From IMG/VR virus record IMGVR_UViG_3300048908_000312, positions 1 through 39,577 of that record: a stretch of 39,577 bases of DNA; one strand, 5' to 3'. Position 1 is the first letter of the stretch. Every line of letters starts with the position of its first letter. Under the pieces are notes generated by a model. That model searched no databases. It had not been told where the DNA came from and was given only the letters and a program-made list of their open reading frames with translations. This DNA is from a virus. A program made the position numbers and the translations under genes. Positions 5,368-25,184 of the stretch are shown one piece after another.

Positions 5368-5376
5368 GGGCTGACC

Positions 5377-6336
5377 ATGAGCGGCGAAAAACTGAAGCGG
5401 ATGGCGGTGATTGAGCTGGCCCGGAAATGGGGCGGCGCGATGAAGGCGGCGGTCGTGGCCACGCCGAAGCAGCGGATCGACATAGAGGCGCTGCTCGCCT
5501 GGGCCTATCTGCGTGAGTTGCCCAAAGTGCCGCGCATTCCCGCCGCGCCGGAGGAATGGCGTCGCGCCTGGGACAAGGTGAGCCAGATGGGCGAGGAATT
5601 GTCGCTGGCCGGTCTCGACGACAATCGCTTCGGCGTCGTGCCGGATTTATTCGCGCAGGATCTGCCGCACAATGACGCGCTGCTCGTCCATGACGCCGTC
5701 TGCGCGCTCGACGCCTTCTGCTTGAACTTGCCCGAGGATTGGTCGCCGCTGGACGATCTGGGCGATCTGGGCGGCCATGCCGGCGAGGTGGCGGCCAAGG
5801 CGCTGGAGCGGCTCACGTCGATCGATGACAAGGGCCAACGCCATCTGCGCCGCACGCCGCGCCGCCTGCTGATGCGCCACGCCATTCTCGGCAGCGCGCC
5901 GGATTGGGAGATCGAGCCCCCGGATGTGCGCTTCGTGCAGGAGTTTGGCGCTGACAAATGGTTTGTGCGCGAGGTGATCGTGACCGATGGCGCGTTCGGG
6001 CCGTCGCGGTTCGAAGTGGAGGTCGACGGCTTCGACCATGTGCGGCGCATGCCCAAGCCCTTCGCCTATCGCAAGACTGAACTCGTGCCCGATCCGACCG
6101 ACGGCTGCGTCGCGCGGGCCGAATATGAGGTCTGGCGCTATGCGCTTGACGCTCTGGCGGCCGATCTGGACGGCCGGCTTGAGCGTTTCGACGTCGTGCC
6201 AAGCGTTCGTCCGATGCGCCCATGGGAGGAGCCTGCGCCGCAGATGGGGCGCGTGCTGCCAGATCTGACGCGGCGCGCGGCGCATGATTCGGGAAGGGTG
6301 CGCGGTCGGCGAAAAAAGATCACAAGCGCTGCTTGA
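5377..6336 (+). CDS. Hypothetical phage protein (319 aa)
   Basis: 319 residues, with GAGGG upstream of the ATG and a 9-bp gap from the previous gene. It begins with a basic helical region (KLKRMAVIELARKWGG) and has an acidic middle (SPLDDLGDLGG). The C-terminal half has regular strand-like segments (FVREVIVTDGAFGPSRFEVEVDGFDHVRRM) and a basic tail GRRKKITSAA. Nothing matches a family I can name. It is the last gene before the strong terminator at 6386-6415, so it closes the early/replication transcription unit. Confidence 0.6.
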   Translation: MSGEKLKRMAVIELARKWGGAMKAAVVATPKQRIDIEALLAWAYLRELPKVPRIPAAPEEWRRAWDKVSQMGEELSLAGLDDNRFGVVPDLFAQDLPHNDALLVHDAVCALDAFCLNLPEDWSPLDDLGDLGGHAGEVAAKALERLTSIDDKGQRHLRRTPRRLLMRHAILGSAPDWEIEPPDVRFVQEFGADKWFVREVIVTDGAFGPSRFEVEVDGFDHVRRMPKPFAYRKTELVPDPTDGCVARAEYEVWRYALDALAADLDGRLERFDVVPSVRPMRPWEEPAPQMGRVLPDLTRRAAHDSGRVRGRRKKITSAA

Positions 6337-10822: not shown

Positions 10823-10831
10823 GGATCGATC

Positions 10832-11773
10832 ATGGCCTTGCAGCGTAAATTCTTCCCCTCGGCGGCCAAGGCTGAGGGGCTTGGCGATCGTCAGGTGCGC
10901 GTCGTCGTCTCGACCTCAGGCGTGGATCGCGCCGGCGATATCGTCATCCCGGAAGGCATCGACCTATCGTCCTACAAGGCCAACCCGGTCATTCTCTGGA
11001 ACCATAATCCATCCTGCCCGGTGGCGCGCTGCCTCGATATCGCCGTCAAGGGCGATGCGGTTGAGGCGCTGGTGCAGTTCCCTCCGGAAGGCGACGATCC
11101 CGAGGCGGACACGCTTTACAAGCGCATCAAGAACGGCGTCGTCAACGCCGCCTCGATCGGCTTCGATCCGACCAAGGCCGAGCCGATCAAGGGCGGCGGC
11201 CTCAAATTCGTGGCGTCGGAATTGATGGAGTTTTCCTTCGTTACGGTCCCCTGCAACGCCGACGCGCTGATCGTCGAGCGGTCTCTGAAAACCAAGGAAG
11301 CCAAGCCAATGAAGCTCAAGGGCCTCTATGACGTGGCGCAACTCGCCTATCTGCTGTCGAGCCTCGGCTATCTCGCCCAGGACGCCGAATGGGAGGCCGA
11401 TTACGAGGGCGACGGCTCAGATGTCCCGGCCATGCTCGCCGACGCCATGAGCCGTCTCGGCGCGGCGCTTGTCGCCATGACGGCGGAAGAGGTCGGCGAA
11501 CTGCTGGCCACGCTGGGTGGCGCGGACAAGGCGGTCGCCGTCGGCCAACTCAAGACCTTTGGCCGCATTGTCAAGGCCGGCCGCGCCTTGTCTGCGGCAA
11601 ACGAGACAGAAATCCGCGCCGCTTGCGAATTGATCGAGGGCGCGTCCGGAAAACTCTCCGGCATCCTCGACACGGTCAACTCCGATGACGATCCGGGCGA
11701 AGACGCGGAAGAAAAATCCGCCGCAGACCGCCGCCGCCGCAAGGCCCGTCTCGCCGCCCTCGGCATCGCCTGA
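10832..11773 (+). CDS. Prohead maturation protease (HK97, S78-like) with C-terminal extension
   Basis: 313 residues. The first ~155 residues are the protease: catalytic His58 in ILWNHNP, catalytic Ser108 in VNAASIGF, and the closing ELMEFSFVTVPCNADA strand. Prohead proteases cleave the capsid delta domain and themselves during head maturation. Residues about 160-313 form a further helical domain (LKGLYDVAQLAYLLSSLGYLAQDAEW... and LIEGASGKLSGILD) ending in an acidic then basic tail, longer than the ~200-residue minimal enzyme. That extension may act as scaffold, as capsid-assembly appendages on proteases do in related phages; that part is inference. Confidence 0.88.
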   Translation: MALQRKFFPSAAKAEGLGDRQVRVVVSTSGVDRAGDIVIPEGIDLSSYKANPVILWNHNPSCPVARCLDIAVKGDAVEALVQFPPEGDDPEADTLYKRIKNGVVNAASIGFDPTKAEPIKGGGLKFVASELMEFSFVTVPCNADALIVERSLKTKEAKPMKLKGLYDVAQLAYLLSSLGYLAQDAEWEADYEGDGSDVPAMLADAMSRLGAALVAMTAEEVGELLATLGGADKAVAVGQLKTFGRIVKAGRALSAANETEIRAACELIEGASGKLSGILDTVNSDDDPGEDAEEKSAADRRRRKARLAALGIA

Positions 11774-11830
11774 TCCAGATTCCGGCCTTCCATCCCGGAT
11801 CGGCCGGCCCGCCACGAAAAGCCCTTTGGC

Positions 11831-11858
11831 AAGGCGCGGCTCGTCATCGACGCGCCTT
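11831..11858 (+). repeat. 8-bp hairpin upstream of the major capsid gene
   Basis: AAGGCGCG (11831-11838) and CGCGCCTT (11851-11858) form a perfect stem with a 12-base loop, in the 107-bp protease-capsid gap. No U-tract follows, so it is more likely an mRNA-stabilising or processing structure than a terminator. Function is inferred only from position. Confidence 0.4.
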
Positions 11859-11880
11859 CCCCGAAAACATGGAGCCCAAA

Positions 11881-13191
11881 ATGGCAGTCAAGATGGCTGA
11901 CCTGCTCGCCAAGCGCGCGCAGAGCGTGGACAAGATCAAGTCCATTGCAGACAAAATGAAGGAACTCGCCGGCCTCGAAAAGTTGAGCGCCGATCAGGCC
12001 AAGGACTTCGACGCCCTCGAAATCGAGGTCAAGGCGGCTCAGGACGAGCGCGACGCGTTCGATGTTCAGATCAAGCGATTCCAGAGCGCCGAGGCCGCCG
12101 CCGCCGAAAAGGCGCTCCCGGTCGAAGGCCAGCAGAGCCCCACGGCGCCCGCCAGCCCGAAGGAAAAGCTTTATCCGGTCGGCAGCATGGTCAAGGCCTT
12201 CTACCACGCTGGCGGCAACGCCATGCTGGCTGGGCAGTGGGCCGAGAAGAACTATGGCGAAAACCATCCCGTCACCAAGGCGCTCAACACCTCGACCGCC
12301 GCCGCCGGCGGCGCGCTGGTGCCGGAGGACTTCGCCAACCAGGTTATCGAGCTGCTGCGCCCGGCGACCGTCGTGCGCTCGTCTGGCGTCCCTGTCATCC
12401 CGATGCCGCGCGGCACCATGCGCATGGGCAAGCAAACGGGCGGCGTCACCGGCACCTATGGCGCCGAAGGCGCCAAGGCCGGCACGCAGCAGGCCTCGAC
12501 CGGCAATATCGTCGCCAGCTTCAAGAAGCTGACCGTGCTCACGCCGATCAGCAATGACTGGCTGCGCTACGCCAGCCCGGCGACCGACAGCCTGGTGCAG
12601 AGCGACATCGTGCTCGGCCTCGCCCGCACCGAGGATCTGGCCTTCCTGCGTGGCGACGGCACGGCGGATTGGCCGAAGGGCCTGCGCAACATCGCGTTGA
12701 GCGGCAATCAGATCGCTTCCAATGGGACCCCGACGCTGACCACCGTCGATTCGGAGCTGTCTCAGGCCATCCTGGCGCTCGAGGGCGCCAATGTCCCGAT
12801 GATGAACCCGGTGTGGTATTTCCACCCCCGCATCAAGCAGTTCCTGCTCACCCTCAAGAATAGCAACGGCTTCTACGTCTATCGCGACGAGATGGTCAAC
12901 AACGGCACCCTGCGCGGCTATCCGTTCAAGACCACGACGCAGATCCCGACGTCGCTGACCGACGGCACGCAGACGGAAGTCTATCTGCTCGACGCCTCGC
13001 AGGCGCTGATCTTCGACGCGCTGGCGCTGTCGCTCGGCATGTCGCAGGACGGCTCCTATACCGACGCCGGCGGCAACCAGCGCAACGCCTTCGAGCGCGA
13101 CGAAACCCTGATCCGCGCCATCGCCGAGCATGATTTCCACCTGCGCCACGATGAGGCTGTCGCCGTCATCACCGGCGTCAAGTGGGCGTAA
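11881..13191 (+). CDS. Major capsid protein (HK97 fold) with N-terminal delta domain
   Basis: 436 residues from the ATG at 11881, which has GGAG 6 bases upstream; an in-frame ATG at 11869 supplies that GGAG and lacks its own ribosome site. Residues ~1-75 are a charged coiled coil (KIKSIADKMKELAGLEKLS...), the delta/scaffold domain removed by the prohead protease, with a Pro/Ala linker (~85-97) at the probable cleavage zone. The rest is the HK97 shell fold: NTSTAAAGGALVPEDFANQVI, the FKKLTVLTPISNDWL strand and VWYFHPRIKQFL. Gene order and the embedded scaffold both fit the HK97 group. Confidence 0.93.
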   Translation: MAVKMADLLAKRAQSVDKIKSIADKMKELAGLEKLSADQAKDFDALEIEVKAAQDERDAFDVQIKRFQSAEAAAAEKALPVEGQQSPTAPASPKEKLYPVGSMVKAFYHAGGNAMLAGQWAEKNYGENHPVTKALNTSTAAAGGALVPEDFANQVIELLRPATVVRSSGVPVIPMPRGTMRMGKQTGGVTGTYGAEGAKAGTQQASTGNIVASFKKLTVLTPISNDWLRYASPATDSLVQSDIVLGLARTEDLAFLRGDGTADWPKGLRNIALSGNQIASNGTPTLTTVDSELSQAILALEGANVPMMNPVWYFHPRIKQFLLTLKNSNGFYVYRDEMVNNGTLRGYPFKTTTQIPTSLTDGTQTEVYLLDASQALIFDALALSLGMSQDGSYTDAGGNQRNAFERDETLIRAIAEHDFHLRHDEAVAVITGVKWA

Positions 13192-13213
13192 CCGGCCTCG
13201 GCTGAATCAACGA

Positions 13214-13235
13214 ACGGCCGGGACGTTCCGGCCGT
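13214..13235 (+). terminator. GC-rich hairpin after the capsid gene
   Basis: ACGGCCGG (13214-13221) pairs with CCGGCCGT (13228-13235) around a 6-base loop, followed by CTTCCC. It begins 23 bp past the capsid stop. The short pyrimidine tract suggests a weak terminator or an mRNA 3' stabiliser that would raise capsid mRNA over downstream messages. Confidence 0.5.
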
Positions 13236-13265
13236 CTTCCCGATCTCCATTGAGAAAGACCTCCC

Positions 13266-13736
13266 ATGAATCGCGTCATCCAGACCGATATCGCCTCGGT
13301 CATCACCGAATGGACGGCTTCGGCCTTCACCTCGCTCACCGCCGGCGGGACCGGCGACAACACCTCCGTCGTCGGCCTCACACTCGACCGCGCCTCGGTC
13401 GGCGTCCCGCTCTGCGGCGAGATCGTCATCGCCTTCGAGGCGGTGCTGGCCGCCGCCGCCACGCTGTCCGTCACCGCGCTCAAGATCGAGCATTCGGCCG
13501 ACGCCTCGACCTGGGCGGATTACCTCGCGCTGACCGCCCCCGGCGTGGTCGCCACCGGCCCGGGCGGCGGCGGCACGGTGCGCGGCCAGGCCACGGCCGC
13601 CGTCAACCTGTCGAGCGCCTATCGCTATATCCGCGTCACCCACACGCCTGATCTCTCGGCCGCCAATACCGACACGGCCAAGACACTCGCGCTGCTGGTG
13701 CTGGCCGGCTTCGCCGCCATCCCGGCGCCGCTCTGA
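13266..13736 (+). CDS. Probable head decoration protein
   Basis: 156 residues, beta-rich with alternating hydrophobics, Gly/Thr-rich loops (TAGGTGDNTSVVG, GPGGGGTVRG) and a LKIEHSADASTWADY strand pair common in small virion surface proteins. It follows the capsid gene and hairpin, the usual place for a decoration or cement protein. No transmembrane or catalytic motifs are visible. Assignment is from position and composition, not a recognised family; an alternative is another capsid-associated protein. Confidence 0.55.
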   Translation: MNRVIQTDIASVITEWTASAFTSLTAGGTGDNTSVVGLTLDRASVGVPLCGEIVIAFEAVLAAAATLSVTALKIEHSADASTWADYLALTAPGVVATGPGGGGTVRGQATAAVNLSSAYRYIRVTHTPDLSAANTDTAKTLALLVLAGFAAIPAPL

Positions 13737-13743
13737 CCAACCT

Positions 13744-13769
13744 GACGGGGCGGCCCGCGCCGCCCTGTC
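13744..13769 (+). terminator. Hairpin between decoration and connector genes
   Basis: GACGGGGCGGC (13744-13754) pairs with GCCGCCCTGTC (13759-13769) with one wobble and a 4-base CCGC loop, then GTTTCCC. The stem is strong but the U-tract short; a partial terminator separating capsid/decoration transcripts from connector genes is likely. Confidence 0.55.
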
Positions 13770-13793
13770 GTTTCCCGCCGGGGTTTTTCCGTT

Positions 13794-14102
13794 ATGGCCA
13801 TTTCGCCCGCTCACGCCAAAGTCAAGTTTCTGAAGCATGCGCCGCCCTATATGCCCGGCGACGTGACGACGATCCCCGTCGACAAGGCCGCCGTTTTTGA
13901 AGGCAGGGGCGTCGTCGCCATCCTCGGCAAGGCCGAAGCGCCGCCGGAGCGCCGCGCCCCGCTCGCGTTCGACCCGGCCTTCGCGCCGATCGACGAAGTG
14001 CGCGCCTTTATCGCCGGACGCGGCAAGGATATTCCGGAAAAGGCCGCGGAGCCGAAACTGCGCGAGCAGGCGGCGGCCCTTCTGGCTGGATCGGTCGCGT
14101 GA
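13794..14102 (+). CDS. Small head-region hypothetical protein
   Basis: 102 residues. It opens with a small beta module (AKVKFLKHAPPYMPGDVTTIPVDKAAVFEGRGVVAIL), a pattern often found in a short protein between capsid and connector genes of siphophages, then a linker and a helical tail (LREQAAALLAGSVA). No assigned role. Its stop overlaps a tiny GTG-started ORF (14099) by GTGA. Confidence 0.65.
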   Translation: MAISPAHAKVKFLKHAPPYMPGDVTTIPVDKAAVFEGRGVVAILGKAEAPPERRAPLAFDPAFAPIDEVRAFIAGRGKDIPEKAAEPKLREQAAALLAGSVA

Positions 14103-14218
14103 AGAAGCCCGGCGCCTATCAGACCCGGGTCATGACGCCGACGCGCCCGGCTGCGGCGCCTGCGCCAGCCGTCGCAAAGCCGCAGGCTCCGGCCAACCCG
14201 CCGAAGGACAAGCGCTGA
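14099..14218 (+). CDS. Tiny Pro/Ala/Lys-rich ORF coupled on both sides
   Basis: 39 residues from GTG (14099) to TGA (14216-14218), beginning MKKPGAYQTRVM and ending NPPKDKR, with about a quarter proline. The start lies in a GTGA overlap with the previous stop and the stop in a TGATG overlap with the adaptor gene, the same coupling used between true genes here. It fills what would otherwise be an anomalous 115-bp gap. Composition suggests a disordered, basic peptide. It may be translated as a protein or serve only to carry ribosomes to the next gene. Confidence 0.5.
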   Translation: MKKPGAYQTRVMTPTRPAAAPAPAVAKPQAPANPPKDKR

Positions 14219-14862
14219 TGGCCCGCACCGTCGTCACGACGATCACGGCGCCAGCTTCGTCTTTTGCGCTGATCGATCTCGCGACGCTCAAGAGCGACCT
14301 TGGCGTGACGATCACGGCCGACGACGCTTTTCTGACGCGGCTGATCGCGCGCGCCTCGACGGCGATTTCGCAATTCTGCAATCGCGTCCTGGTCGCGGAA
14401 ACCCTGAGCGATTCCTTTTCGGCCGGGCGTTCCAGTTCGGCGCGCATGGTCCTCGACCGTGACATGCCGCTGCAATTGTCGCGTTGGCCCGTGATCGAGC
14501 TCGGCGCGGTGATTGAGAATGGGACGACGCTGACCGTCGGCGTCGATTTCTTATTGGACGGGCCTTCGGGTCAGTTGACGCGGATCGACGCCGACGGCGC
14601 CCGCAAACCCTGGCTCGATGCGCCGATCAGCGTCGCCTATTCGGCCGGCTATGACCCGATCCCCGACGACATTGTCGACGCCTGCGAAAAGCATGTCCTC
14701 TCGACCTATATGGCCCGCGGCCGCGACCCTGCGCTGAAAACAGAAACCCTCGTGGGCGTCTTCCAGGCGCAATATTTCGGCGACCAGGCGAAGGGCATGG
14801 CCAATATTATGGATGTGCTGGCGCCGACGCTTTCGAATTACCGCGTTCCCGTGATCGCGTGA
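14218..14862 (+). CDS. Head-tail connector/adaptor protein (gp6-like)
   Basis: 214 residues. The helical core matches phage head-tail adaptors: DLATLKSDLGVTITADDAFLTRLIARASTAISQFCNR, then a beta region (SRWPVIELGAVIENGTTL) and a C-terminal helix (IPDDIVDACEKHVLSTYMARGRDPALKTETL). Such proteins form a ring under the portal and carry the head-closure proteins. The start at 14218 is coupled to the tiny ORF before it; the end overlaps a possible GTG (14859). Confidence 0.8.
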   Translation: MARTVVTTITAPASSFALIDLATLKSDLGVTITADDAFLTRLIARASTAISQFCNRVLVAETLSDSFSAGRSSSARMVLDRDMPLQLSRWPVIELGAVIENGTTLTVGVDFLLDGPSGQLTRIDADGARKPWLDAPISVAYSAGYDPIPDDIVDACEKHVLSTYMARGRDPALKTETLVGVFQAQYFGDQAKGMANIMDVLAPTLSNYRVPVIA

Positions 14863-14873
14863 GGGCCGGGCGA

Positions 14874-15260
14874 ATGGATCTGACCGGCGGCACGACGCGC
14901 ATGTTGCGGATGGCCTATAAGGCGGCGGCAACGCCTCTCGCTTTCCGAAGCCCGGTCAACAGCAAGCCGGTTGCGCTCGCCGCGATCGACCGTAGCGCGG
15001 CGGCCGTCCTTGATGAAAAAGGCCTTCTCGTCGCCGCCGTCAAACCTTGTTGCACGGTGCTGCGCGCGGATCTCGCCACAGCCGGAATCGCGCCGGAGCA
15101 GATGGCCGACGTCAATGTCTCCTTCGCCGGGAAAAACTGGCGCGTGCTATCGGTTCAGGACAAGCCTGACCCGTCCTGGCGCGTCACGGCCGGCCAACTC
15201 AAGCCCGTGCCGAATTGGAACGCGCTGGGCGAAGTCCTCTTCACGTTGATGGAAGTCTGA
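14874..15260 (+). CDS. Head-tail joining protein candidate
   Basis: 128 residues from ATG at 14874, with GAGGG 7 bases upstream; a GTG at 14859 within the preceding stop (GTGA) would add five residues. The C-terminal part is a small beta-barrel-like sequence (VNVSFAGKNWRVLSVQDKPDPSWRVTAGQL), typical of head-closure/stopper proteins. Position directly after the adaptor and before the tail-terminator candidate fits. Family identity is inferred. Confidence 0.6.
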   Translation: MDLTGGTTRMLRMAYKAAATPLAFRSPVNSKPVALAAIDRSAAAVLDEKGLLVAAVKPCCTVLRADLATAGIAPEQMADVNVSFAGKNWRVLSVQDKPDPSWRVTAGQLKPVPNWNALGEVLFTLMEV

Positions 15261-15727
15261 TGGACCGGCGCGAAGCAATCCTATCGCGGCTGTTCACCGT
15301 GCTTTCCAGCATTTCGGGGTTCTCAGCGGTCTATCGCAACCGGCCGCTGAACCCGGCCGCTTCGCTGCGGCCCGCGCTGTTCCTGCTCGACGCCCATGAG
15401 GCGCCCGATCTGGAAAAGGGCATGGAGCCGGCCTTTCGCCGTCTCGGCATCACGCCGATGCGGATGACGCCGGAGATTTTCATTTCGCTCGGCGAAGCGC
15501 CTGAAAATGTCGGGCCGTCGTTGAACGCCATCCGCGTCGAAGTGCTGAAAGCCGTTTTCAATGACGTCACATCAACCGACGCCGCAGGCCTTGGTTCTCT
15601 CGTCACGCCGAGCGGAGACGTTCGCTATGAGGGCTGCGCCACGGCGCTCACCATGGCGTCCGGCGTCGAGGGCGAGATGGGCGTCTCGCTGACCTTCCTC
15701 TACCCGCTCAAGCCGAGCGAATTCTAG
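15260..15727 (+). CDS. Tail terminator/completion protein candidate
   Basis: 155 residues from ATG at 15260 (TGATG overlap). Pattern of a tail-terminator fold: N-terminal helix (REAILSRLFTVLSSISGF), central strands (PALFLLDAH, MRMTPEIFISLGEA), a helix (SLNAIRVEVLKAVFND) and C-terminal strands (VEGEMGVSLTFLYPL). These proteins cap the tail tube and join it to the head. It comes just before the terminator and the tube gene. Assigned on position and secondary-structure pattern. Confidence 0.6.
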   Translation: MDRREAILSRLFTVLSSISGFSAVYRNRPLNPAASLRPALFLLDAHEAPDLEKGMEPAFRRLGITPMRMTPEIFISLGEAPENVGPSLNAIRVEVLKAVFNDVTSTDAAGLGSLVTPSGDVRYEGCATALTMASGVEGEMGVSLTFLYPLKPSEF

Positions 15728-15751
15728 CCTTTCACAGAACTAACAGAACCA

Positions 15752-15780
15752 AAAACGATCGGCTTCAGGCCGGTTGTTTT
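15752..15780 (+). terminator. Intrinsic terminator before the tail tube gene
   Basis: AAAACGATCGGC (15752-15763) pairs with GCCGGTTGTTTT (15769-15780) around TTCAG, with two G-T wobbles. The A-run/T-run flanks are ideal for a bidirectional intrinsic terminator. It sits 25 bp after the tail-terminator candidate and closes the connector operon. Confidence 0.8.
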
Positions 15781-15857
15781 GCGCCCCGATCCGGTCCTTG
15801 GGCAAGACCGACCCGCGCCGTGGTGATGACGCCGCAAGCCCCTAGATGGAGCCTCCT

Positions 15858-16556
15858 ATGACCCAATGGACGGTTGGTCCTCAAAACTACATGATCGGCA
15901 AGGGCGTCGTGTCCGTTGTGACCGGCGTTCCGAATGTCGATTATTGGCAGCCGCTGACGGCCTATGCGGTCGGCGCCGCCGTGGTCAATTTCGACGCCAC
16001 CGCGACGGATGGCTATCCGATCAAGGTGTTCGTGTGCGCGACCGCCGGCACGTCGGCTTCCTCGACCGGCCCGCATACCGGCACGCTGACCGATGACACG
16101 GTGGTCTGGACGATCTCGGCACCGACCGACGTTGGCAACGTCTCGAAATTCGAGATCAACATCAAGTCGGATTACGAGAAGCACAAGACTTCGCGCTCCG
16201 GCGCCGTGGTGCAGGATTTCGTCGCCGAAACCGGCCGCGACGGCTCGTTTTCCGCGACCCTCGAGGAATATTCGCTCGAAAACCTTGCCCTCGTCTCCTA
16301 TGGCGTGATTTCGGGAACGTCGCCGAACCGTCTCGGCAAGATGGGCGGCCAGTCGTCGCAAAATCAGTGCTGGATGTTCCGTGGCACCGGCGCCCATGGC
16401 GCGCATTTCCAGGTCGTGGTTCCGCGCGCCCTGGTCCATCCGCCGAAGACGATCGGCTTCATCTCCGAAAAACTCGCCAATTTCGAATGCGAAGCGGACG
16501 TGTTCGGCATGCCGTCCGACGCCTACGCTTTCTATTACGTGGCCGAAATCGCGTAA
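15858..16556 (+). CDS. Major tail tube protein with inserted carbohydrate-binding-like module
   Basis: 232 residues from ATG 15858, which has GGAG 6 bases upstream within an in-frame ATG at 15846. The first 28 and last ~140 residues form a tube-type fold (NVSKFEINIKSDYEKHKTSRSG, CWMFRGTGAHGAHFQVVVP, the EIA end). Residues ~29-90 are an insertion: YWQPLTAYAVGAAVVN then KVFVCATAGTSASSTGP and TDDTVVWTI, the W-x-TAY-x-G / TAGTS / D-x-TVVW pattern of small carbohydrate-binding-like domains in phage tail proteins. Such an insert would project from the tube surface in hundreds of copies. The gene has its own terminator upstream, as expected for a high-copy protein. Confidence 0.82.
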   Translation: MTQWTVGPQNYMIGKGVVSVVTGVPNVDYWQPLTAYAVGAAVVNFDATATDGYPIKVFVCATAGTSASSTGPHTGTLTDDTVVWTISAPTDVGNVSKFEINIKSDYEKHKTSRSGAVVQDFVAETGRDGSFSATLEEYSLENLALVSYGVISGTSPNRLGKMGGQSSQNQCWMFRGTGAHGAHFQVVVPRALVHPPKTIGFISEKLANFECEADVFGMPSDAYAFYYVAEIA

Positions 16557-16615
16557 ATCTCCAGCAGCAATTGTGGCGCCCCGAACCATCTGGGCGCCCT
16601 TTTTGAGGTCATTCC

Positions 16616-17011
16616 ATGCCCAACATTTTGAATTTTCGGCGCGCGCAAAAAGAGGTCGAGATCGCAGGCGAACGCCTCAATATCTGCGGCTGGCGGCTCG
16701 GTATTTTATCGGATGTGCTCAACGCCAATCCGAAACTTGCCGCCATTATTGACGCCGGGAAAACTCCGGCGCCGGGGGAGATGGTTAGCGCGATCGTTGA
16801 AGCTGATATCGGGCGAATTCTTTCGCAGGGCTGCGGATATGCGCCCGAAGATGATGCGGCAGCGGCAGCGTTCGGCAATGATCTTCTCATTGGTGAGCAA
16901 ATGGAACTGTTGGGCCACATTCTCGCTGTCACCTTTGAGAAGCAGGCCGCCGGCCCTTTGGCCCCAGCGATTGCGACATTGACAGGCGCGACCCTGTCCT
17001 TGAACGCCTAG
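16616..17011 (+). CDS. Tail assembly chaperone (G-like frame)
   Basis: 131 residues, GAGG 7 bases before the ATG. Beta-rich N-terminus (ILNFRRAQKEVEIAGERLNICGW) followed by a helical bundle (EMVSAIVEADIGRILSQG, NDLLIGEQMELLGHILAVTFE), typical of the first chaperone between tail tube and tape measure genes. In lambda and relatives a fraction of ribosomes slip -1 near the end of this gene to make a G-T fusion; a fitting site is at 16954-16960. Name assigned by position and fold pattern. Confidence 0.75.
   Translation: MPNILNFRRAQKEVEIAGERLNICGWRLGILSDVLNANPKLAAIIDAGKTPAPGEMVSAIVEADIGRILSQGCGYAPEDDAAAAAFGNDLLIGEQMELLGHILAVTFEKQAAGPLAPAIATLTGATLSLNA
16954..16960 (+). other. Candidate -1 ribosomal frameshift site CCCTTTG
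   Basis: In the 16616 frame the codons read ggC|CCT|TTG, so C CCT TTG fits X XXY YYZ exactly. A -1 slip lands in the frame that is open from 16939 (after a TGA at 16936-16938) to 17325. A 6-bp hairpin (16981-16986 with 16993-16998) lies 20 bases downstream, farther than the usual 5-9 bases. Confidence 0.6.
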
Positions 17012-17031
17012 GCTTCTACGGTCGCAAGGAA

Positions 17032-17325
17032 ATGGCGGCGAATGACGCGCCGCCGCCTGTCGGCGCGCCGCTATGGCGCCCAAATGAAAAGCGCAGTGTC
17101 CTTACCGAATTCGCGATCGCATATGACCTTCTGGTCGAAGCAAATTACCCGCCGGATGACATATGGGAAATGACGCCGCGCCAGATGAATGCGGCGCTCC
17201 ATTTTGCCGGAAAGCGGCGGCGCCTACGTCAGGCCGAAAGGCTCAGCCTCCACGCGCTCGCCGCGCAGGGCGACGGCAAGGAAATCGAAAAGCAGATCAA
17301 GAGGCTGGCGCCGCTGGGTAAGTGA
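17032..17325 (+). CDS. Tail assembly chaperone T-like frame (likely made only as fusion)
   Basis: 97 residues if started at the ATG 17032, but AAGGA abuts that ATG with only one base between, a poor ribosome site, while the frame is open back to 16939. Slipping at 16954-16960 would give a 236-residue fusion passing through DPVLERLGFYGRKEM before this part. The sequence is helical and basic (EFAIAYDLLVEANYPPDDIWEMTPRQMNAALHFAGKRRRLRQAERL), like the C-terminal tape-measure-binding part of GT chaperones. Independent translation cannot be excluded. Confidence 0.65.
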   Translation: MAANDAPPPVGAPLWRPNEKRSVLTEFAIAYDLLVEANYPPDDIWEMTPRQMNAALHFAGKRRRLRQAERLSLHALAAQGDGKEIEKQIKRLAPLGK

Positions 17326-17328
17326 CCG

Positions 17329-17970
17329 ATGAAATTTCGCTTCGAAAAGAATGATCGCGGCCCCATTATCGACATCGAAGCATTGGGAACTCTTGTCTCC
17401 AATGCCGCGACGGCGGCGATCGAAGACGCGGCCGATCTTATTCGCGCCAAGGGTTCGGCCGATGTTGTAGCAGCCGGGTTCTCGCGTGATTTTTCGGATG
17501 CGCTTGACGTCACGACGCATATTTCGCAGGGATTCAAAACCCGCAACTCGGTCACGGCGCGGCTTCGCATCCCCTACGCCATTGTGTTCGAATATGGCGC
17601 CACGGTCGAAGGCAATCCGCTCTTGTGGATCCCGCTTCCCGGCGTTCCGAAGATGATCGGGGCCAAGAAGACGACCGCGAAACTTTATGCGGCCGAGGTT
17701 GGCCCGCTCACCTACGTCAAGACTGGCCGATTTCCGATGCTTTACGGCTATGGCGGCGGCGCGCCGGCGGAATCGGCGTTGAAGGCTGAACCGTCACGCT
17801 CGAAACGGCTGACGACCGCCGGGTTGAAGGCCAAAACCGGCGCGAAAATCCCGCTGTTCATCGGGCTGCATGCGACCGAAATCGCCAAGCGATTGCATAT
17901 CCTGGAAATCTGCCAAGACGCAGAGCGTCGCATTCCAGAATTTTACTCGAACTATGCGGGAGGGCGTTAA
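17329..17970 (+). CDS. Pre-tape-measure tail protein (DUF6441-like)
   Basis: 213 residues. The segment IPYAIVFEYGATVEGNPLLWIPLPG (~83-107), a strand pair around YGATVEG followed by LWIPL, resembles the uncharacterised phage family DUF6441, which occurs next to tape measure genes in alphaproteobacterial phages. A long N-terminal helix (LVSNAATAAIEDAADLIRAKG) precedes it. It directly abuts the tape measure gene (TAA then ATG). A minor tail or tail-completion role is inferred. The DUF match is from memory of the pattern and should be treated as tentative. Confidence 0.6.
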   Translation: MKFRFEKNDRGPIIDIEALGTLVSNAATAAIEDAADLIRAKGSADVVAAGFSRDFSDALDVTTHISQGFKTRNSVTARLRIPYAIVFEYGATVEGNPLLWIPLPGVPKMIGAKKTTAKLYAAEVGPLTYVKTGRFPMLYGYGGGAPAESALKAEPSRSKRLTTAGLKAKTGAKIPLFIGLHATEIAKRLHILEICQDAERRIPEFYSNYAGGR

Positions 17971-20900
17971 ATGGCTGGCGGCGCTTTCACGCAAACCGTC
18001 GTTCTCGACGGCGGCGACAAGGTCGCCAAGCAGCTTGCCGAGATCGGGAAATCAGGCGAACAGGCGTTCAAGCAGATCGGCGACGCGACCAAATCGGCGT
18101 CGCAAAATCTCAATTCCGCGCAATCGGTTTTCGGCCAGATAGCGTCTGCCTTTCAAGGCATGGTCCAGCAAGTCGCGGATGCGGGGCAGGCCTTTGGCCG
18201 CGCCTTCGATCCGCTGATTTCCGCAGGCTCGGCGGCGCTTGGCGCTGCGACCAGGACCGGGGCGGGGTTCGGAGCGGTTGCGGGCGCGGCGGCCGGCATT
18301 TCCGGGGCGATCGGCAAGATCGGGCAGGAGGCGGCCAATTCGGTCGCCAAGCTGAACGACGCGGCGACCGCCGCCGGCCTGACGATGGAGAAATATTCCG
18401 CGCTCCGCGCTGCGTTCGAAGGCGTTGGCGTTGGCGCCAATGTCCTCGATAAAATGGTGCAGGCCTCCGAAAGAGCCGCTCGCGGCGCCGAATTGAAGGG
18501 CGGCCCGTCGCATTTCCGCCGCGCGCCAGAGAGCGCCGATCAGGGCGATGATGCGGAGAGCGCCGACAAGGCGGCGGCGTCGGTTGGAAAGCTGACAGAA
18601 AGCATTCTCGGGGCCGAACGCGCGGCGTCTGATCTTCCCCGCGTTTTCAAGGCCGTCAATGGCGCCTTTGAGGAAGTCCACGCCGGCGACAGCAAATCCC
18701 AAGGCCTTGGCGGCTATGCCCAGGCGGCGGGTGAGCTCGGCGTCGCTTTGCGCGATATGTATGGCAAAGCGCGCCCCGGCATCGAGATCGCGCGCGATGT
18801 CGTGCTGTCGTTGGGCAAAATGGCGGATGGCGCGCGCCGCGCGGACATCGCCGCCCGGGCCTTTGGCGAAGGGCTGGCGCGGGAAGTGCTGGCCGTCGCG
18901 GACAATCGGGAGGCCATCAACGCCCTGGCTGCGGCGCACGAGAGGTCCGCCGCCACTATGTCGGAGGCGCAGAAGAAACAGGCCGACGACGCCCGCGCGA
19001 CCGGCGCCATTCTCGCCTCGGTCAAGGCGTCGTGGCTCGAATATTATCGATCACTGGCGACGCCGGTCACGATTGATCAGAACAACGCCATCATCGTCTT
19101 TTTCGAGCGCAACAAACAGGCGTTGAAGGATTTCGGCGACAATGTCGTCGGCCCGGCGATTCGTTGGCTCGGGCAGTTCCAGAATTCTTTCGGCGCGGTT
19201 TCGATCGCCGCCGCCGCCCTCGGCTCGTCGCTTCGCCTGTTATCGCCGGTCGCCGCCACGGCCTTTGGCGCGGCGGGCATCGCGGCGATTGTTTTCGGCG
19301 ACAAGATCAAAGACGGCGCGCTCGCCGCCATGACCGAATTGACGCGCATCGTCAAGGCGAACGATCTTTCGACCTTCGCGGGCTGGAAAAACGCCGCGGG
19401 GGCGGTTTGGGAAGACATTAAACAAATCGCCTTCGACGCTTGGGCGGAAATTCGCCAGCGCGTTGCGGCGGTCGATTGGGCGGCGGCCTGGGCCGATTTC
19501 AAGGCGGCGGCGTTCAACGCCTGGGACAATCTGCGCCAGCAAATTGCGGCGATTGATTGGGCCGGCCTATGGGACCGGTTTACCTCGATCGCATCCGACG
19601 CGATGGGCGCAGCCGTCAAGATCGCGGGCGACGCCTATGGCGCGATCAAGAGCGCGGCGGTCGCGGCGTTCCCCGGCCTGGTCGAAACCTTTGTGCGGTT
19701 CGAGCAATTCGCGAAAGACACAATGACCGCGATCAAGGGATTTTCGAAAGAAACCTGGATTGCGATCGGCGTCGGGCTAGCGGCGGCCGCGATTGTCTGG
19801 CGCGGGAGCTTTCTTGGCCTCGCGCTTGGCGCCGCGCCGTTTTGGGAAGAAATCCTTGTCGGCGCGGCGCGTATTTCTCCGGCCTTTCGCGCCATTGTCG
19901 CGCCCATTCGCGCGTCTATGGCAGGGCTGATCGATGGCATGTTGCAGCTTTGGCGCAATTTTTGGACGGTCCTGTCCAACCCCGCCGACGTTGGCGGCGC
20001 CGCCAATCTTGAACGCGCGGCTGGCTTCGCCGGATTTCGCGCGGCAGCGATTCGGGTTTGGGGAGAAGTCCAGCGCATATTCGTGGCTGGCGTGCGCGGC
20101 ATTCGCTCGACCATCGAAGGAGCGTTCCCGGAGGCGAAAGAATTATTCAGCGGCTTCGCGGCGTCCGCGTCACGCCTTTATGCTGCGCTTCGTATCCTCG
20201 GAGTCGAACTTTCGGCGTTTCTCGCCATGATCACGCTCGGCAAGGTTTCTCTCGGGCCGTGGGAGGCGCTATTTCTGGCTTTCGGGTTGCACATCGCCGG
20301 CATCTTGCCGCTGTTCACGTCCCTGATCACGTTCATCGGGTTGGCGATCACCGGCATCGGCCATCTAGCCGGCGCGATCGTCGCCATCCCCAGCGCGATT
20401 CAGACGATGGGCGGCGTTATCGCCAGTTTCTGGGCGGTCGTGACAAGCCCCGCTGTGCTGGCGATCGCCGCGATCGTCGCTCTCGCCGTCGCGGTCGGCA
20501 ATCTCTACAACCATTGGAACGAACTGACTGCGGCTGGCCGCGCGTTTTATTCATCGCTCGCAGTCGGCGCGGCGGGGGTTCTCGCTTACGTCGCGGCGAT
20601 CAATATTATCCCCGCCGTTGCGACTGCCGCCGGCGCAGCGATCACTGTATTCACGGCGATCGTGCGCGGCCTTTCCGCAGCATTCCTGTTCATGTCAGCT
20701 ACACCTTGGGGCGCAATTATTGCTGCGGCCATCATCCTTGTCGCCGTCGCGCTCTACGCACTCTACACCCATTGGGACCAGGTCAAATTAGGCGCCCAGG
20801 CGGCGTGGAGCGCGATCACCAACGGGGCGAATGCCGCCTGGTCCTCGATCAAGAGCGCGGCGGAAGGTTTTTTCGGCTGGCTCGAAGCCAAATGGAACGC

Positions 20901-22089
20901 GCTGAAGGACCTCGGCGGCAGCCTTTGGGACAAGTTCAAGACCGGCGCCAATAGCGCATGGGAAGGCGTCAAAGCCGCCTTTACCGACAGCATCACGTGG
21001 ATCGAAACCAAATGGGACGCGTTGATCGCCAAAATCAAAGGCGGCCTTGCGGCGGTCGGCTTACTTCCGTCGGGGGGCGCCTCGTCCGATTCCGGCAGTT
21101 CCAACAGTGAGACCGCCAGCTCCAGCTCCGGCGCCCCGGGCTTCGCCGGCGGCGGCGTCATCAATGGACCTGGCACGGGGACATCGGACAGCATCCTTGC
21201 CAGGCTTTCGAATGGCGAATTTATTGTCACCGCTAAAGCCGTGAGGGCTTATGGCGCGCGTCTGTTCCACGCGTTCAACAACCTATCCTTTCCCGGTTTC
21301 GCAGACGGCGGCGATGTTTCGGACTCAGCACAAGTCGATCTCGGCGATCTTGCTGATAGCTTCGGAGCATCATCGGGACAGATTGACCTTGGCGCGCTCA
21401 CCGACAGACTCGGAGCATCGTCGGGACAAGTCGATCTCGCCGATCTTGCTGACAAGATCGGAACATCGTCGGGACAGGTCGATCTCGCGCAGATTGCCAA
21501 CAAGCGCAGAAAATCGTCGGGGCAAGTCGATCTCGCGGCGCTCGCCGACAAACTCGGAATATCGTCTGCGATAGTGGATCTCTTTGGAGGAGATTCCGAC
21601 TTCAAGGCTACGGGCTTCGGCGTTAGCGGCTTCAAAGACGGCGGCTTGATCGGAGCGATTAAATCGATCGGCAGCGCCTGGCGAGGGGCGTCGAAATTTT
21701 TGAGCGGCGGCCTGCTGTCCGGCCCTGGAACCGGAACGTCGGACAGCATCCTCGCGCGGTTGAGCAACGGCGAATTCGTCATGAACGCCAAGGCCGTTGG
21801 CGCGTTCGGCGCGGATTTCTTCCACTCGTTGAACAACCTGAAAATGCCAGGCTTCGCCATGGGCGGCGCAATCGGAACGCCGGCGCTGGCCTCGCTCCCG
21901 GCCTTTACGGGCGGCGGCGTCGCGCGCCAGCCTGCCCACGCTGGCATGATCCCCTTCACGCTCGATCAGGGCGGCCGTTCTTATGAACTGATGGCGCCTC
22001 ATGAAACAGTGCGGGAATTGCGGCGCCATTCGACGGCTTCGCGCATGACTTCGACCACCAAACGCGCGCCGAGCTGGGATAGGGGCTGA
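17971..22089 (+). CDS. Tape measure protein with internal and C-terminal repeats
   Basis: 1372 residues, the longest gene. The N-terminal 65 residues are coiled-coil-like (VAKQLAEIGKSGEQAFKQIG), followed by Ala-rich helices, several hydrophobic stretches (~800-950) and Trp-rich repeats: a 27-residue duplication at ~487-540 (AFDAWAEIRQR / AFNAWDNLRQQ) and a second pair at ~952-1025 (GANAAWSSIKSA / GANSAWEGVKAA). The C-terminus has two copies of GPGTGTSDSILARLSNGEF with GFAGGG/GFKDGG and NNLxxPGFAxGG flanks, separated by five 16-residue repeats. At ~1.5 Å per residue a tail of about 200 nm is expected, as in siphophages. It scaffolds tube polymerisation and probably forms a membrane channel during DNA entry. 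Confidence 0.92.
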   Translation: MAGGAFTQTVVLDGGDKVAKQLAEIGKSGEQAFKQIGDATKSASQNLNSAQSVFGQIASAFQGMVQQVADAGQAFGRAFDPLISAGSAALGAATRTGAGFGAVAGAAAGISGAIGKIGQEAANSVAKLNDAATAAGLTMEKYSALRAAFEGVGVGANVLDKMVQASERAARGAELKGGPSHFRRAPESADQGDDAESADKAAASVGKLTESILGAERAASDLPRVFKAVNGAFEEVHAGDSKSQGLGGYAQAAGELGVALRDMYGKARPGIEIARDVVLSLGKMADGARRADIAARAFGEGLAREVLAVADNREAINALAAAHERSAATMSEAQKKQADDARATGAILASVKASWLEYYRSLATPVTIDQNNAIIVFFERNKQALKDFGDNVVGPAIRWLGQFQNSFGAVSIAAAALGSSLRLLSPVAATAFGAAGIAAIVFGDKIKDGALAAMTELTRIVKANDLSTFAGWKNAAGAVWEDIKQIAFDAWAEIRQRVAAVDWAAAWADFKAAAFNAWDNLRQQIAAIDWAGLWDRFTSIASDAMGAAVKIAGDAYGAIKSAAVAAFPGLVETFVRFEQFAKDTMTAIKGFSKETWIAIGVGLAAAAIVWRGSFLGLALGAAPFWEEILVGAARISPAFRAIVAPIRASMAGLIDGMLQLWRNFWTVLSNPADVGGAANLERAAGFAGFRAAAIRVWGEVQRIFVAGVRGIRSTIEGAFPEAKELFSGFAASASRLYAALRILGVELSAFLAMITLGKVSLGPWEALFLAFGLHIAGILPLFTSLITFIGLAITGIGHLAGAIVAIPSAIQTMGGVIASFWAVVTSPAVLAIAAIVALAVAVGNLYNHWNELTAAGRAFYSSLAVGAAGVLAYVAAINIIPAVATAAGAAITVFTAIVRGLSAAFLFMSATPWGAIIAAAIILVAVALYALYTHWDQVKLGAQAAWSAITNGANAAWSSIKSAAEGFFGWLEAKWNALKDLGGSLWDKFKTGANSAWEGVKAAFTDSITWIETKWDALIAKIKGGLAAVGLLPSGGASSDSGSSNSETASSSSGAPGFAGGGVINGPGTGTSDSILARLSNGEFIVTAKAVRAYGARLFHAFNNLSFPGFADGGDVSDSAQVDLGDLADSFGASSGQIDLGALTDRLGASSGQVDLADLADKIGTSSGQVDLAQIANKRRKSSGQVDLAALADKLGISSAIVDLFGGDSDFKATGFGVSGFKDGGLIGAIKSIGSAWRGASKFLSGGLLSGPGTGTSDSILARLSNGEFVMNAKAVGAFGADFFHSLNNLKMPGFAMGGAIGTPALASLPAFTGGGVARQPAHAGMIPFTLDQGGRSYELMAPHETVRELRRHSTASRMTSTTKRAPSWDRG
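19429..19590 (+). repeat. Two-copy 81-bp duplication in the tape measure gene
   Basis: Units 19429-19509 and 19510-19590 encode 27-residue copies beginning AFDAWAEIRQRVAAVDW and AFNAWDNLRQQIAAIDW. Identity is high at protein level but diverged at codon level, so the duplication is old or under selection. Tail-length change by unit gain or loss is a plausible consequence. Confidence 0.65.
21331..21570 (+). repeat. Five 48-bp tandem repeats in the tape measure gene
   Basis: Units start at 21331, 21379, 21427, 21475 and 21523; each encodes 16 residues of the form QVDLADLADKIGTSSG (residues 1121-1200), and a broken sixth (IVDLFGG) follows at 21571. Copies differ at several positions but keep CAAGTCGATCTCG-like starts and GCATCGTCGGGA-like ends. 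The array lies between the two GPGTGTSDS modules, outside the helical length-determining region. Confidence 0.85.
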
Positions 22090-22535
22090 TGACCATTCCT
22101 CCCGCTTCAGGAACGCTGCTTGTCCTCTCGACGCCGATGGGCATCCCGCTCTATTCGGCGCGCGGGCTGAAGCAAAGCCTCAACGTGATCCGCCAGGCGC
22201 AACAGCTCCGGCGCACGGTCAACGGCGGCCTGATCGATCTGTCGCTGTCGCAATTCCGCAAATACGCTTCGACGATTTCCTGCACCGATCAGCGCGCCCC
22301 GGCGATTGATGGCATCTGGCCGGGGCAGATCCTGACCGTCTCCTGCGTCGCGGAATTATCCTACCTGACCGCCGGCGGCTCGCCGCAGCGCACCGTTGTG
22401 TCGGGCTCTTCCTATACCGAAGGCGATTACACCTTCTATCGTCCGCAGCTCACAATGCGCGTCATCACGCCCAAGACCGAAATGGACGAGTGGAAATGCT
22501 CGGTCGGCTGGGCGCTGGACTTGGAAGAGGTCTAG
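22089..22535 (+). CDS. Minor tail protein after tape measure
   Basis: 148 residues, starting in a TGATGA overlap with the tape measure stop. Beta-rich, with VNGGLIDLSLSQFRKYASTISC and a C-terminal MRVITPKTEMDEWKCSVGWALDLEEV. Position between tape measure and hub suggests a distal tail or tail-tip component. No family recognised. Confidence 0.6.
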   Translation: MTIPPASGTLLVLSTPMGIPLYSARGLKQSLNVIRQAQQLRRTVNGGLIDLSLSQFRKYASTISCTDQRAPAIDGIWPGQILTVSCVAELSYLTAGGSPQRTVVSGSSYTEGDYTFYRPQLTMRVITPKTEMDEWKCSVGWALDLEEV

Positions 22536-22538
22536 CCC

Positions 22539-25184
22539 ATGTCCGGACCCGGTCCCGGCTCTGGCGGCCCGTTCTACGCCCATTACGTCGCGGATTCGAC
22601 CGTCGGCTTTTCCTCGGACTGCACCACAGAAGACGAGGCGATTTTCTCGTTCCGGCTGCGGCATGACGAAGGGCAAATCCCCGTCCTTGAGATGGAAATC
22701 AAGAACCCCGGCGTTGGGATGCTCTCGACCGGGCGCAAGCAATGGCTGTGGTTTTCATGGTGGAACGGATCGAGCGTCGTCCCGCTGTTTTTCGGGCGCC
22801 TTGTCGGCATTCCGTCCGGCCTTCGCGCGCAAGTTCTCAGGGTGCAATTCATCGCTCGAGCGGTGAATTATATTGCGCTCAAGCAGTCCGTGGCCGAGAC
22901 GCTGAAAATCGCGCCGAATTATGACCCGGTCTTTCTCGACGAGAGCCATCGCGACGACCCGGACGCGATCCTTGAAGCCTGGTCGGCGGCCTTCCATGTC
23001 GATCGCACCTCGCTCGCGTGGACCGTTTCCGATATCCTGATCGGCGAAGACGGGACGGTCACGTTCACCGAGGACCAAATCCTTCAAGACAGCGTCGACC
23101 CGCGTATCGGCGAGCCGCCCTTTACCTCCGTCCGCGTCGATATGACGGCCAATTGGTCGCAGACGCAGACGGGCGGCTCGATCAAGCTCGGGCCGTGGTC
23201 GATCGAGACCTATACCGGATCAAGCTTTCTGGCGGACTGGCCCAAGGCGGGGGCGTCGATCGGCGGCGGCTGGATCGTGCAATCCTCGGTGGCGCTCGAT
23301 CTCTACGGCATCGAAAACGCCCAGACCGGCAATTATTCCTACCAGTGGAAAAACGCGGATAAGAAACATAACGAAGGCGACACCATGTCGCTGTCGATGA
23401 ATTATTCCTATCCGGTGTTTCAAGGCAACCCGCCCTATTTTTCCGTTCTCACCAATGAGCGCATCGTCAGTTTCACGGTCGCGGGGGCACCGGGGGCGCC
23501 GGGGTCGAGCATCGACCAGACCTTCATCTGGGTCCCGCAATATTCCATCACCGCCTACCTCTATCTGCAATACAAGGCCGATCGCAAACGCGCGGAGCGA
23601 TTGACCTTCGCCCTGCAAAGCGACTTGCAGCCGGTGTTGACCGATCCGACCGTTCAGCAGGATTCGGAAGTCATCAAGCTCAATACTGTGGCGTTGTCCG
23701 ACCCGCTCATCGTACCGGCCAACTGGACCGTGCTGGCGGGCCAGCCCGTCGCGCTCGGCCAGGTTTGCTTTCCGAACAACCCGACGCTGCCGGGCGGAAC
23801 GAGTTTCCAGATTTGCGTCGTCGCGGGAACGGCCGGAGCGACCGAGCCGGTGTTCTCGGATACGATCGGCGCGCCGACGACGGACGGCGGCGTGACCTGG
23901 GCCTGCCTCGGCGCCAGCCTGCCGAGCATTCCCGATTGGTCGCCCTCGACCGCCGCGAGCCTTGGGACGCTGATCGCGCCGCAGACGCCGTCCTGGATCT
24001 ATTATTCGGCGCTGCTGCCTCCGGTGACGCCGTTCCGCACGGCGGGCGTCGACGTGTCCGAAGGCATGGTCATCCGGACCGATAACAATCTGTCGTTTCA
24101 GGTCTGCACCATCGGCGGCGTGACCGGCTACATTTCAACCCCGGCCTTTTCGCCGGTCTTTGGCGTCACGACCAATGACGGCTCCGCGCAATGGACCTCG
24201 CTCGGAACATCGCTGCCGTCCGGCGCAATCCAGATGTGCATTCAGGCCGGAACCTCCGGGCTGCAATTGCCGCCCGCCTTTTCGAACGTCGCGGGCAACC
24301 AGGTCACAGACAACACCATCCATTGGATCTCGCTCGGAACCGGAGGGCAGTCGATCTCGATTCCCGCAGGCGGGCAGGTTGGCAACGTCCCGGCGCGGTC
24401 TTATTTCTCAACCGATCGGGGCCGGCAGAGCCTCGAATATGGCCTCATGAAAGCCCGCGCCCATCTGCGCAAGAAGGCGCGCTGCGTCGAGATTGATTTC
24501 GCGGTTCCCTTCGCTCTGGGCGTTGGTCTGTCCTGCCGCAAGAATGCGACCATCGTCGATCCGGAACAGCTTGCGGTTTTTGGCGGCGCGGCGACGGGGA
24601 AAATCATTTCCTATGAATTGTCCTGCGACGGCGACAGCGGCGAGGCGCTGACCAAGGTGCGGATCGGCTGCGCGGCCGGAACCGGCGGAACGGCGCTCGC
24701 CGTGGACCCGACCGATTTCTATATCGAGGAAGGCTATATCGACGACGGCTATTACGAGGATGTCGGCGCCACGGTGCTGACCTCCTCCAGCGACCTCGGC
24801 TACGCGCCGCCGCTCGACAATCCGAATGATGATGGCCTGACCTTCCCGCTGTCCGCCTCGCAAGTGGTCTTGAACAATGGGATCGTCGGCGACGCCGCGA
24901 CGCAACTGGCGGCGCTCAACGCCGCGCTGCCGGACATCAACAAGGAAATCGTCCTGCAGGCCAAGCAGCAATCGGGGACGGGGACCATCGCCGATCAGCT
25001 CAGATATGCGCAACAGATCGCCGCGCTCGGCAATGTCACGGTCGAAAGCGTTTTGGCCGAGCCGGGCAATTCTGTTTATCTCGATCTGCAATTGAAGCCG
25101 GTGACCGGAACGAGTTTCACTACGGTTTACACGGTCGCGACGACGAAATTGCAGATCCCGCAGCAAATCAACCTCGCGGCGTGA
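22539..25184 (+). CDS. Tail hub/tip protein with three inserted surface modules
   Basis: 881 residues. The N-terminal ~390 residues form a hub-like beta framework (FSFRLRHDEGQIPVLEMEIKNP, VPLFFGRLVGIP) like the central tail-tip proteins of siphophages. Three related modules follow: ~420-458 (SFQICVVAGTAGATEP...TDGGVTWACLG), ~518-556 (SFQVCTIGGVTG...TNDGSAQWTSLG) and ~564-601 (IQMCIQAGTSG...TDNTIHWISLG). Then the hub fold resumes (YFSTDRGRQSLEYGLMKARAHLRKKARCVEIDFAVP) and a C-terminal ~90-residue alpha/beta tail follows. The modules resemble the insert in the tail tube protein. A host-facing adsorption role for them is inferred. Confidence 0.72.
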   Translation: MSGPGPGSGGPFYAHYVADSTVGFSSDCTTEDEAIFSFRLRHDEGQIPVLEMEIKNPGVGMLSTGRKQWLWFSWWNGSSVVPLFFGRLVGIPSGLRAQVLRVQFIARAVNYIALKQSVAETLKIAPNYDPVFLDESHRDDPDAILEAWSAAFHVDRTSLAWTVSDILIGEDGTVTFTEDQILQDSVDPRIGEPPFTSVRVDMTANWSQTQTGGSIKLGPWSIETYTGSSFLADWPKAGASIGGGWIVQSSVALDLYGIENAQTGNYSYQWKNADKKHNEGDTMSLSMNYSYPVFQGNPPYFSVLTNERIVSFTVAGAPGAPGSSIDQTFIWVPQYSITAYLYLQYKADRKRAERLTFALQSDLQPVLTDPTVQQDSEVIKLNTVALSDPLIVPANWTVLAGQPVALGQVCFPNNPTLPGGTSFQICVVAGTAGATEPVFSDTIGAPTTDGGVTWACLGASLPSIPDWSPSTAASLGTLIAPQTPSWIYYSALLPPVTPFRTAGVDVSEGMVIRTDNNLSFQVCTIGGVTGYISTPAFSPVFGVTTNDGSAQWTSLGTSLPSGAIQMCIQAGTSGLQLPPAFSNVAGNQVTDNTIHWISLGTGGQSISIPAGGQVGNVPARSYFSTDRGRQSLEYGLMKARAHLRKKARCVEIDFAVPFALGVGLSCRKNATIVDPEQLAVFGGAATGKIISYELSCDGDSGEALTKVRIGCAAGTGGTALAVDPTDFYIEEGYIDDGYYEDVGATVLTSSSDLGYAPPLDNPNDDGLTFPLSASQVVLNNGIVGDAATQLAALNAALPDINKEIVLQAKQQSGTGTIADQLRYAQQIAALGNVTVESVLAEPGNSVYLDLQLKPVTGTSFTTVYTVATTKLQIPQQINLAA

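Follow-up and report, generated by a model that had tools for sequence, protein, structure and literature searches.

How two overlapping open reading frames of an uncultivated phage, lying between its tail tube and tape measure genes, come to be expressed is the question raised by this locus. The window, the whole stretch of 39,577 nucleotides analysed here (IMG/VR record IMGVR_UViG_3300048908_000312), carries its genes in the order terminase, portal, protease, capsid, adaptors, tail tube, TAC1, TAC2, DUF6441 and tape measure. The TAC pair sits between the major tail protein and tape measure genes, as in pairs of the lambda G/GT kind, with DUF6441 intervening, and this is the classical place for frameshifted tail chaperones. 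A conserved tail assembly chaperone frameshift in long-tailed phages was reportedly established by Xu et al. in 2004. The features needed for the argument are these:

15846 to 16556, plus strand: major tail or tail tube protein (phrog_807, E 1.1e-12; NF052337, E 3.7e-14, under the cut-off of that model)
16616 to 17011, plus strand: TAC1, first tail assembly chaperone or pre-tape-measure frame, 131 aa, in a lambda gpG-like position (open reading frame; hhalign homology to relatives)
16939 to 17325, plus strand: TAC2, the -1 open frame, of which 16960 to 17325 would be used after slippage (phrog_13355; relatives)
16954 to 16960, plus strand: C_CCT_TTG heptamer, the proposed -1 slip site (sequence, frames, conservation)
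16616 to 17325, plus strand: predicted TAC1-TAC2 frameshift fusion, 236 aa, lambda gpGT-like (by arithmetic)
16966 to 17014, plus strand: possible, weak stimulatory RNA structure after a 5-nt spacer (MFE -16.3 kcal/mol, z -1.58)
17032 to 17034, plus strand: in-frame TAC2 ATG, the sole ATG/GTG/TTG candidate of the -1 frame before the conserved core (absent from this place in relatives)
17329 to 17970, plus strand: DUF6441 gene (PF20039, E 2.3e-06; counterpart in locus L029 66% identical)
17971 to 22089, plus strand: tape measure protein (phrog_3547, E 4.7e-38)

The initial annotation of this DNA had proposed that the two frames are joined by a -1 frameshift at CCCTTTG, and its geometry was exact to the base: the heptamer occupies 16954 to 16960 with codons GGC, CCT and TTG in the 16616-17011 frame, and the -1 frame is free of stops from 16939 to 17325, as claimed. 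The 236-residue fusion it had predicted is obtained from 115 frame-0 codons up to TTG and 121 codons in the -1 frame (16960-17322), giving the junction ...AAGPL-GPSDCDI. The ATG of TAC2 had been described as having no good ribosome site, and the AAGGA found there indeed lies only about 1 nt 5' of ATG 17032, which is too close; this ATG is the earliest ATG, GTG or TTG of the window's -1 frame. Taken with the comparisons below, the pair is very probably joined by -1 programmed ribosomal frameshifting at CCCTTTG within a siphophage tail module, yielding the predicted 236-residue fusion.

The motif itself carries little of this conclusion. The overlap of TAC1 and TAC2 in the window is 24 codons long, CCCTTTG is its sole X_XXY_YYZ heptamer, and GGGGG is absent from it; about 4% of overlaps of this length would hold some heptamer by chance, and the motif by itself is therefore weak evidence. 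Across 33 chosen ORFs of the window (10,927 codons) there are 20 in-frame X_XXY_YYZ heptamers, CCCTTTG occurring just once. With CCT making up 9% of proline codons and TTG 12% of leucine codons in the window, the probability that Gly-Pro-Leu would be written as CCCTTTG is 0.0074 (about 0.7%). Of the remaining 19 in-frame heptamers, 12 had one or more alignable homologs among the collected loci, and a single one of these was kept, in its only homolog. TTTTTTC at 20868 in the tape measure gene aligned to TTTCTTC in L030. The case for CCCTTTG is strong because of conservation in relatives, and for no other reason.

Such relatives were reached only through neighbouring genes. Searches by tblastn with TAC1 and TAC2 against 50,697 phage records gave no match, nor did TAC2 against 72,556 plasmids, and none of the isolated phages in the searched collection has a detectable relative of either protein. 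Single-protein scans of IMG/VR (TAC1, TAC2, tail tube and DUF6441, and also alignment A1) returned the identical copy only, two scans of genome contigs returned no relative, and phages that share the capsid genes (RcapNL, phiKM1, AS1) have different tail modules. The useful relatives came solely from two alignments, that of the terminase, which led to 80 IMG/VR loci of which two, L029 and L030, had the tail cassette, and that of the neighbouring gene at 14859-15260, which led to 12 loci. Nine distinct TAC loci resulted: the window, L029, L103, L104, L030, L105, L106, L111 and L112. Left out of the set were L107 (the same as L029), L108, L109 and L110 (which carry the TAC genes of L030), copies of the window, and L113, which ends before the TAC genes. 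A second IMG/VR record, IMGVR_UViG_3300048907_000350 (49,676 bases), is identical to the window across the stretches compared within window positions 9846-23967.

Compared with the window, TAC1 identity is 34% for L029, 28% for L103 and 33% for L104, with values of 24-26% across the L030 clade (only 24% for L030 itself), and TAC2 identity is 44% for L029 and 34% for L030. For the automatic alignment of in-frame heptamers tblastn gave no TAC1 homolog, and conservation of CCCTTTG rests instead on the locus comparisons and on hhalign, which related the window's TAC1 to that of the L029 clade with 98.1% probability (E 7.8e-14) and to that of the L030 clade with 90.3% probability (E 1.5e-6), and which paired the window's GPL with GPL of L030 and APL of L029. 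The window's TAC1 had no significant family match in profile searches and gave no match to Pfam PF23789 (Pre_tape_measure). Against the gathering cut-off of 27 bits for that family, L030 (61.3) and L105 (59.6) pass, L103 falls below (23.3), and L029 gave no match. Given the hhalign homology to the L030 clade, the window's TAC1 is likely a distant relation of PF23789, membership not being claimed. For TAC2 the sole significant family match was phrog_13355 (E 5.7e-07), a family without known function that was matched at E <= 1 by 7 of the 8 TAC2 members scanned. The match to PF09550 (Phage_TAC_6; E 0.0013) reached 19.6 bits, short of the 23.4-bit gathering cut-off; TAC2 is TAC-like by its position, with no PF09550 membership assigned. 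Family searches found no match to a lambda family for TAC1 or TAC2. AlphaFold modelled the two proteins with low confidence (mean pLDDT 54.5 and 67.3), and a fold search with the models gave no match at E <= 0.001.

A homologous CCCTTTG is present in six of the nine distinct loci, the window included. In the window, L030, L105, L106 and L111 it lies in frame 0 with TAC2 in the -1 frame; in L112 it lies at 5658, out of frame with that locus's own TAC1 start, TAC1 (5357-5704) being broken upstream of the heptamer by what is apparently an indel. In L029, L103 and L104 the heptamer is lost. These three loci read TTG GGG GAG, that is G_GGG_GAG, two codons past the homologous place (at 15302, 8050 and 6136, respectively), with the same -1 arrangement; L104 reads GGA CCC TTG GGG GAG and reaches its contig end soon after. 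Loss of the slippery site in relatives that keep both genes had been named at the outset as evidence against the frameshift, and such loss is literally found in L029 and L103 (L104 being cut at the contig end), but a substitute GGGGGAG stands two codons downstream. The absence of CCCTTTG from these three loci does count against the CCCTTTG reading. The -1 relation of the second ORF is nevertheless common to all six relatives in which TAC1 is intact and TAC2 complete (L029, L103, L030, L105, L106 and L111), and the frameshift reading is well supported because relatives either keep CCCTTTG or carry another slippery site. Chances are about even that one lineage of uncultivated siphophages retained C_CCU_UUG, followed by a hairpin after 5-6 nt, as the frameshift signal of its tail chaperones and that its sister lineage swapped to G_GGG_GAG, L104 having an intermediate look.

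Conservation around the heptamer was then expressed as invariant columns among L030, L105, L106 and L111. These amount to 58 of 88 upstream (-100 to -12), 9 of 12 in the next stretch and all 7 of the heptamer, followed by 20 of 23, 28 of 30 and 24 of 27 up to the TAC1 stop, and 37 of 43, 53 of 70 and 64 of 90 past it (the last being +200 to +290). In the four relatives nucleotide conservation climbs at the heptamer and stays high across the dual-coded overlap. Where the amino acid is invariant, 30 of 76 upstream codons are also invariant in nucleotides, as compared with 3 of 3 heptamer codons and 19 of 23 in the overlap (frame 0). Pairwise codon differences show frame 0 constrained upstream of the site (74 synonymous, 34 nonsynonymous) and the -1 frame constrained past the TAC1 stop (103 and 48); in the overlap the counts, 12 and 13 in frame 0 and 8 and 16 in the -1 frame, are too small to tell the frames apart. 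Among L029, L103 and L104, the 30 columns preceding the site include 16 invariant ones and the 30 following it include 23. Site, frames, conservation and dual-coding signature are all direct observations, as is the lack of a second-frame start in the four relatives: in each of L030, L105, L106 and L111 the earliest -1 ATG, GTG or TTG comes only past a conserved W..TPR core, such that independent initiation there would drop the core. In the sister clade candidate -1 starts do precede the core, TTG 15437 in L029 and ATG 8200 in L103, and these speak against a strict no-start claim for that clade. The initial reading as a frameshift is thus upheld by the homologous CCCTTTG, the -1 relation, the conservation from the heptamer on and the lack of a second-frame start in relatives.

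These observations also bear on the alternatives. TAC2 could be an independent gene of 97 aa read from ATG 17032, for example by re-initiation 20 nt past the TAC1 stop, the heptamer being incidental; the ATG does stand in frame shortly after the stop at 17011, and L103 and L029 offer the pre-core starts just mentioned. This is improbable, since the four CCCTTTG relatives whose TAC1 is intact all lack such a start, residues of the -1 frame are conserved already ahead of ATG 17032 (similarity to L029 in this frame is seen from TAC2 residue 18 on, at nt 16990, 42 nt upstream of the ATG), Shine-Dalgarno spacing is poor, and the rise in conservation starts at the heptamer rather than at a start codon. 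A genuine frameshift elsewhere in the window's 24-codon overlap, for instance by single-tRNA slippage on a nearby codon, was judged marginally less probable still. The different place and motif in L029, L103 and L104 do indicate that the slip position can move, but in the window's overlap no other X_XXY_YYZ heptamer and no GGGGG is available, and within the L030 clade the homologous codons show no nucleotide variation.

Two further explanations are very remote, and about equally so. A single gene split by a sequencing or assembly indel has a precedent of sorts in the broken TAC1 of L112, which shows that such indels are possible in these contigs; it is refuted by the independent relatives, the -1 relation recurring in the window, L029, L103, L030, L105, L106 and L111, and a second IMG/VR record matches the window exactly wherever the two were compared. 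No evidence was found in favour of transcriptional slippage in place of ribosomal frameshifting; it usually needs long homopolymers, and the runs in the heptamer are three identical bases at most.

The occurrence of slippage at CCCTTTG, its rate and the roles of the proteins are inferred. The majority of ribosomes would translate TAC1 and terminate at 17011. A minority would slip, tRNA-Pro moving from CCU to CCC and tRNA-Leu from UUG to UUU, and would read on in the -1 frame as far as 17325, joining TAC1 and TAC2 in one protein of 236 residues. Analogy with lambda gpG and gpGT suggests a role for TAC1 in coating the tape measure protein and one for the fusion in recruiting tail-tube subunits. 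The UUG to UUU re-pairing is near-cognate, and a low shift rate is therefore expected, fitting a minor fusion product; for lambda a ratio of 30:1 is given in PMC5009743. The heptamer had been presented as outside the common A/G types, and it is rare, but it had already been measured: a survey in E. coli that covered all 64 heptamers (PMC4066793) places C_CC.U_UU.G among 18 with more than 0.10% frameshifting unaided. The same survey reports that these 18 patterns, C_CC.U_UU.G included, are also underrepresented, that motifs with cognate A-site re-pairing perform best, and that U_UUG alone gives 1.8-3.6 times background.

Evidence for a downstream hairpin as stimulator is suggestive only. A predicted hairpin begins 5-6 nt past CCCTTTG in all five relatives carrying the heptamer (MFE -12.6 to -18.7 kcal/mol, z -1.17 to -3.04), and its stretch is nearly invariant in the L030 clade, leaving covariation unable to test it. 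In the window the structure (z -1.58, MFE -16.3 kcal/mol; other spans -0.10 to -1.63) is not clearly beyond shuffles, and downstream of the site in L029 and L103 no structure was better than shuffles. The energies of an upstream Shine-Dalgarno-like stimulator are mixed and not consistent across loci: matches are strong in L103 (-9.5 kcal/mol) and L104 (-9.3 kcal/mol), while CCCTTTG loci give -3.0 to -5.9 kcal/mol and the TAC1 background in the window is -3.3 kcal/mol.

The window is then a well-supported case of a known mechanism, the tail chaperone frameshift of lambda G/GT type, ordinary in kind with an uncommon heptamer, and the points of interest are the heptamer itself and its replacement in the sister clade. 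An evolutionarily supported pyrimidine-type slippery heptamer in phages would be useful for training frameshift predictors, and annotation of fused tail chaperones in metagenomic phages would be aided. In the neighbouring clade a different slippery site lies almost at that codon, and how a recoding signal can be exchanged with both proteins retained can be tested there directly. The retention of C_CCU_UUG in one lineage and the change to G_GGG_GAG in its sister would, if true, let a natural exchange of slippery sites be traced at a single locus.

The lambda G/GT pair and the conserved frameshift of long-tailed phages are described in PMC5009743. As in lambda, an overlapping -1 ORF pair stands between the tail tube and tape measure genes and a longer minor fusion is predicted; unlike lambda, the window's heptamer is CCCTTTG and not of A/G type, and DUF6441 precedes the tape measure gene. 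The arrangement of a frameshifted pair, one extra tail gene and then the tape measure gene resembles that of KL1 and HK97 in PMC3483164, where the site predicted for KL1 is GGGAAAC rather than CCCTTTG. G_GGG_GAG of L029, L103 and L104 has the form of the 'fivetwo' sites (GGGGGAA) described for TACs of SEA-PHAGES in the PRFect paper (PMC10885494), except for its final G, and it is not the site used by the window itself. The C_CC.U_UU.G of the E. coli survey (PMC4066793) is exactly the window's heptamer, there in a reporter context and not in a tail gene. A literature search, supplements lying outside it, found nothing tying CCCTTTG to a frameshift or CCCTTT to tail assembly chaperone frameshifting; for CCCUUUG with frameshifting it returned only a flavivirus alternative ORF.

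Rhodobacter phages RcKemmy and RcOceanus are similar in having an annotated, joined TAC frameshift and a relative of DUF6441 (annotated as minor tail protein). They differ from the window in the heptamer near the end of TAC1, which is GGGAAAC, and in the place of DUF6441, which there precedes the tail tube gene, and their TAC2 has no detectable similarity to the window's TAC2. The presence and place of the DUF6441 gene vary. It follows TAC2 in the window (17329-17970), L029 and L112 (5957), and lies about 400 nt further on in L103 (8786). No copy was found in L030, and in the Rhodobacter phages the gene comes before that for the tail tube (3743 in locus L006 was among the positions compared). 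Separately, Pseudomonas phage VW-6B (MF975721.1; 2002-2325 in locus L011) has an unannotated -1 open frame after the gene in the TAC1 position, with AAACCCG in the overlap, and this frame is probably the missing second chaperone.
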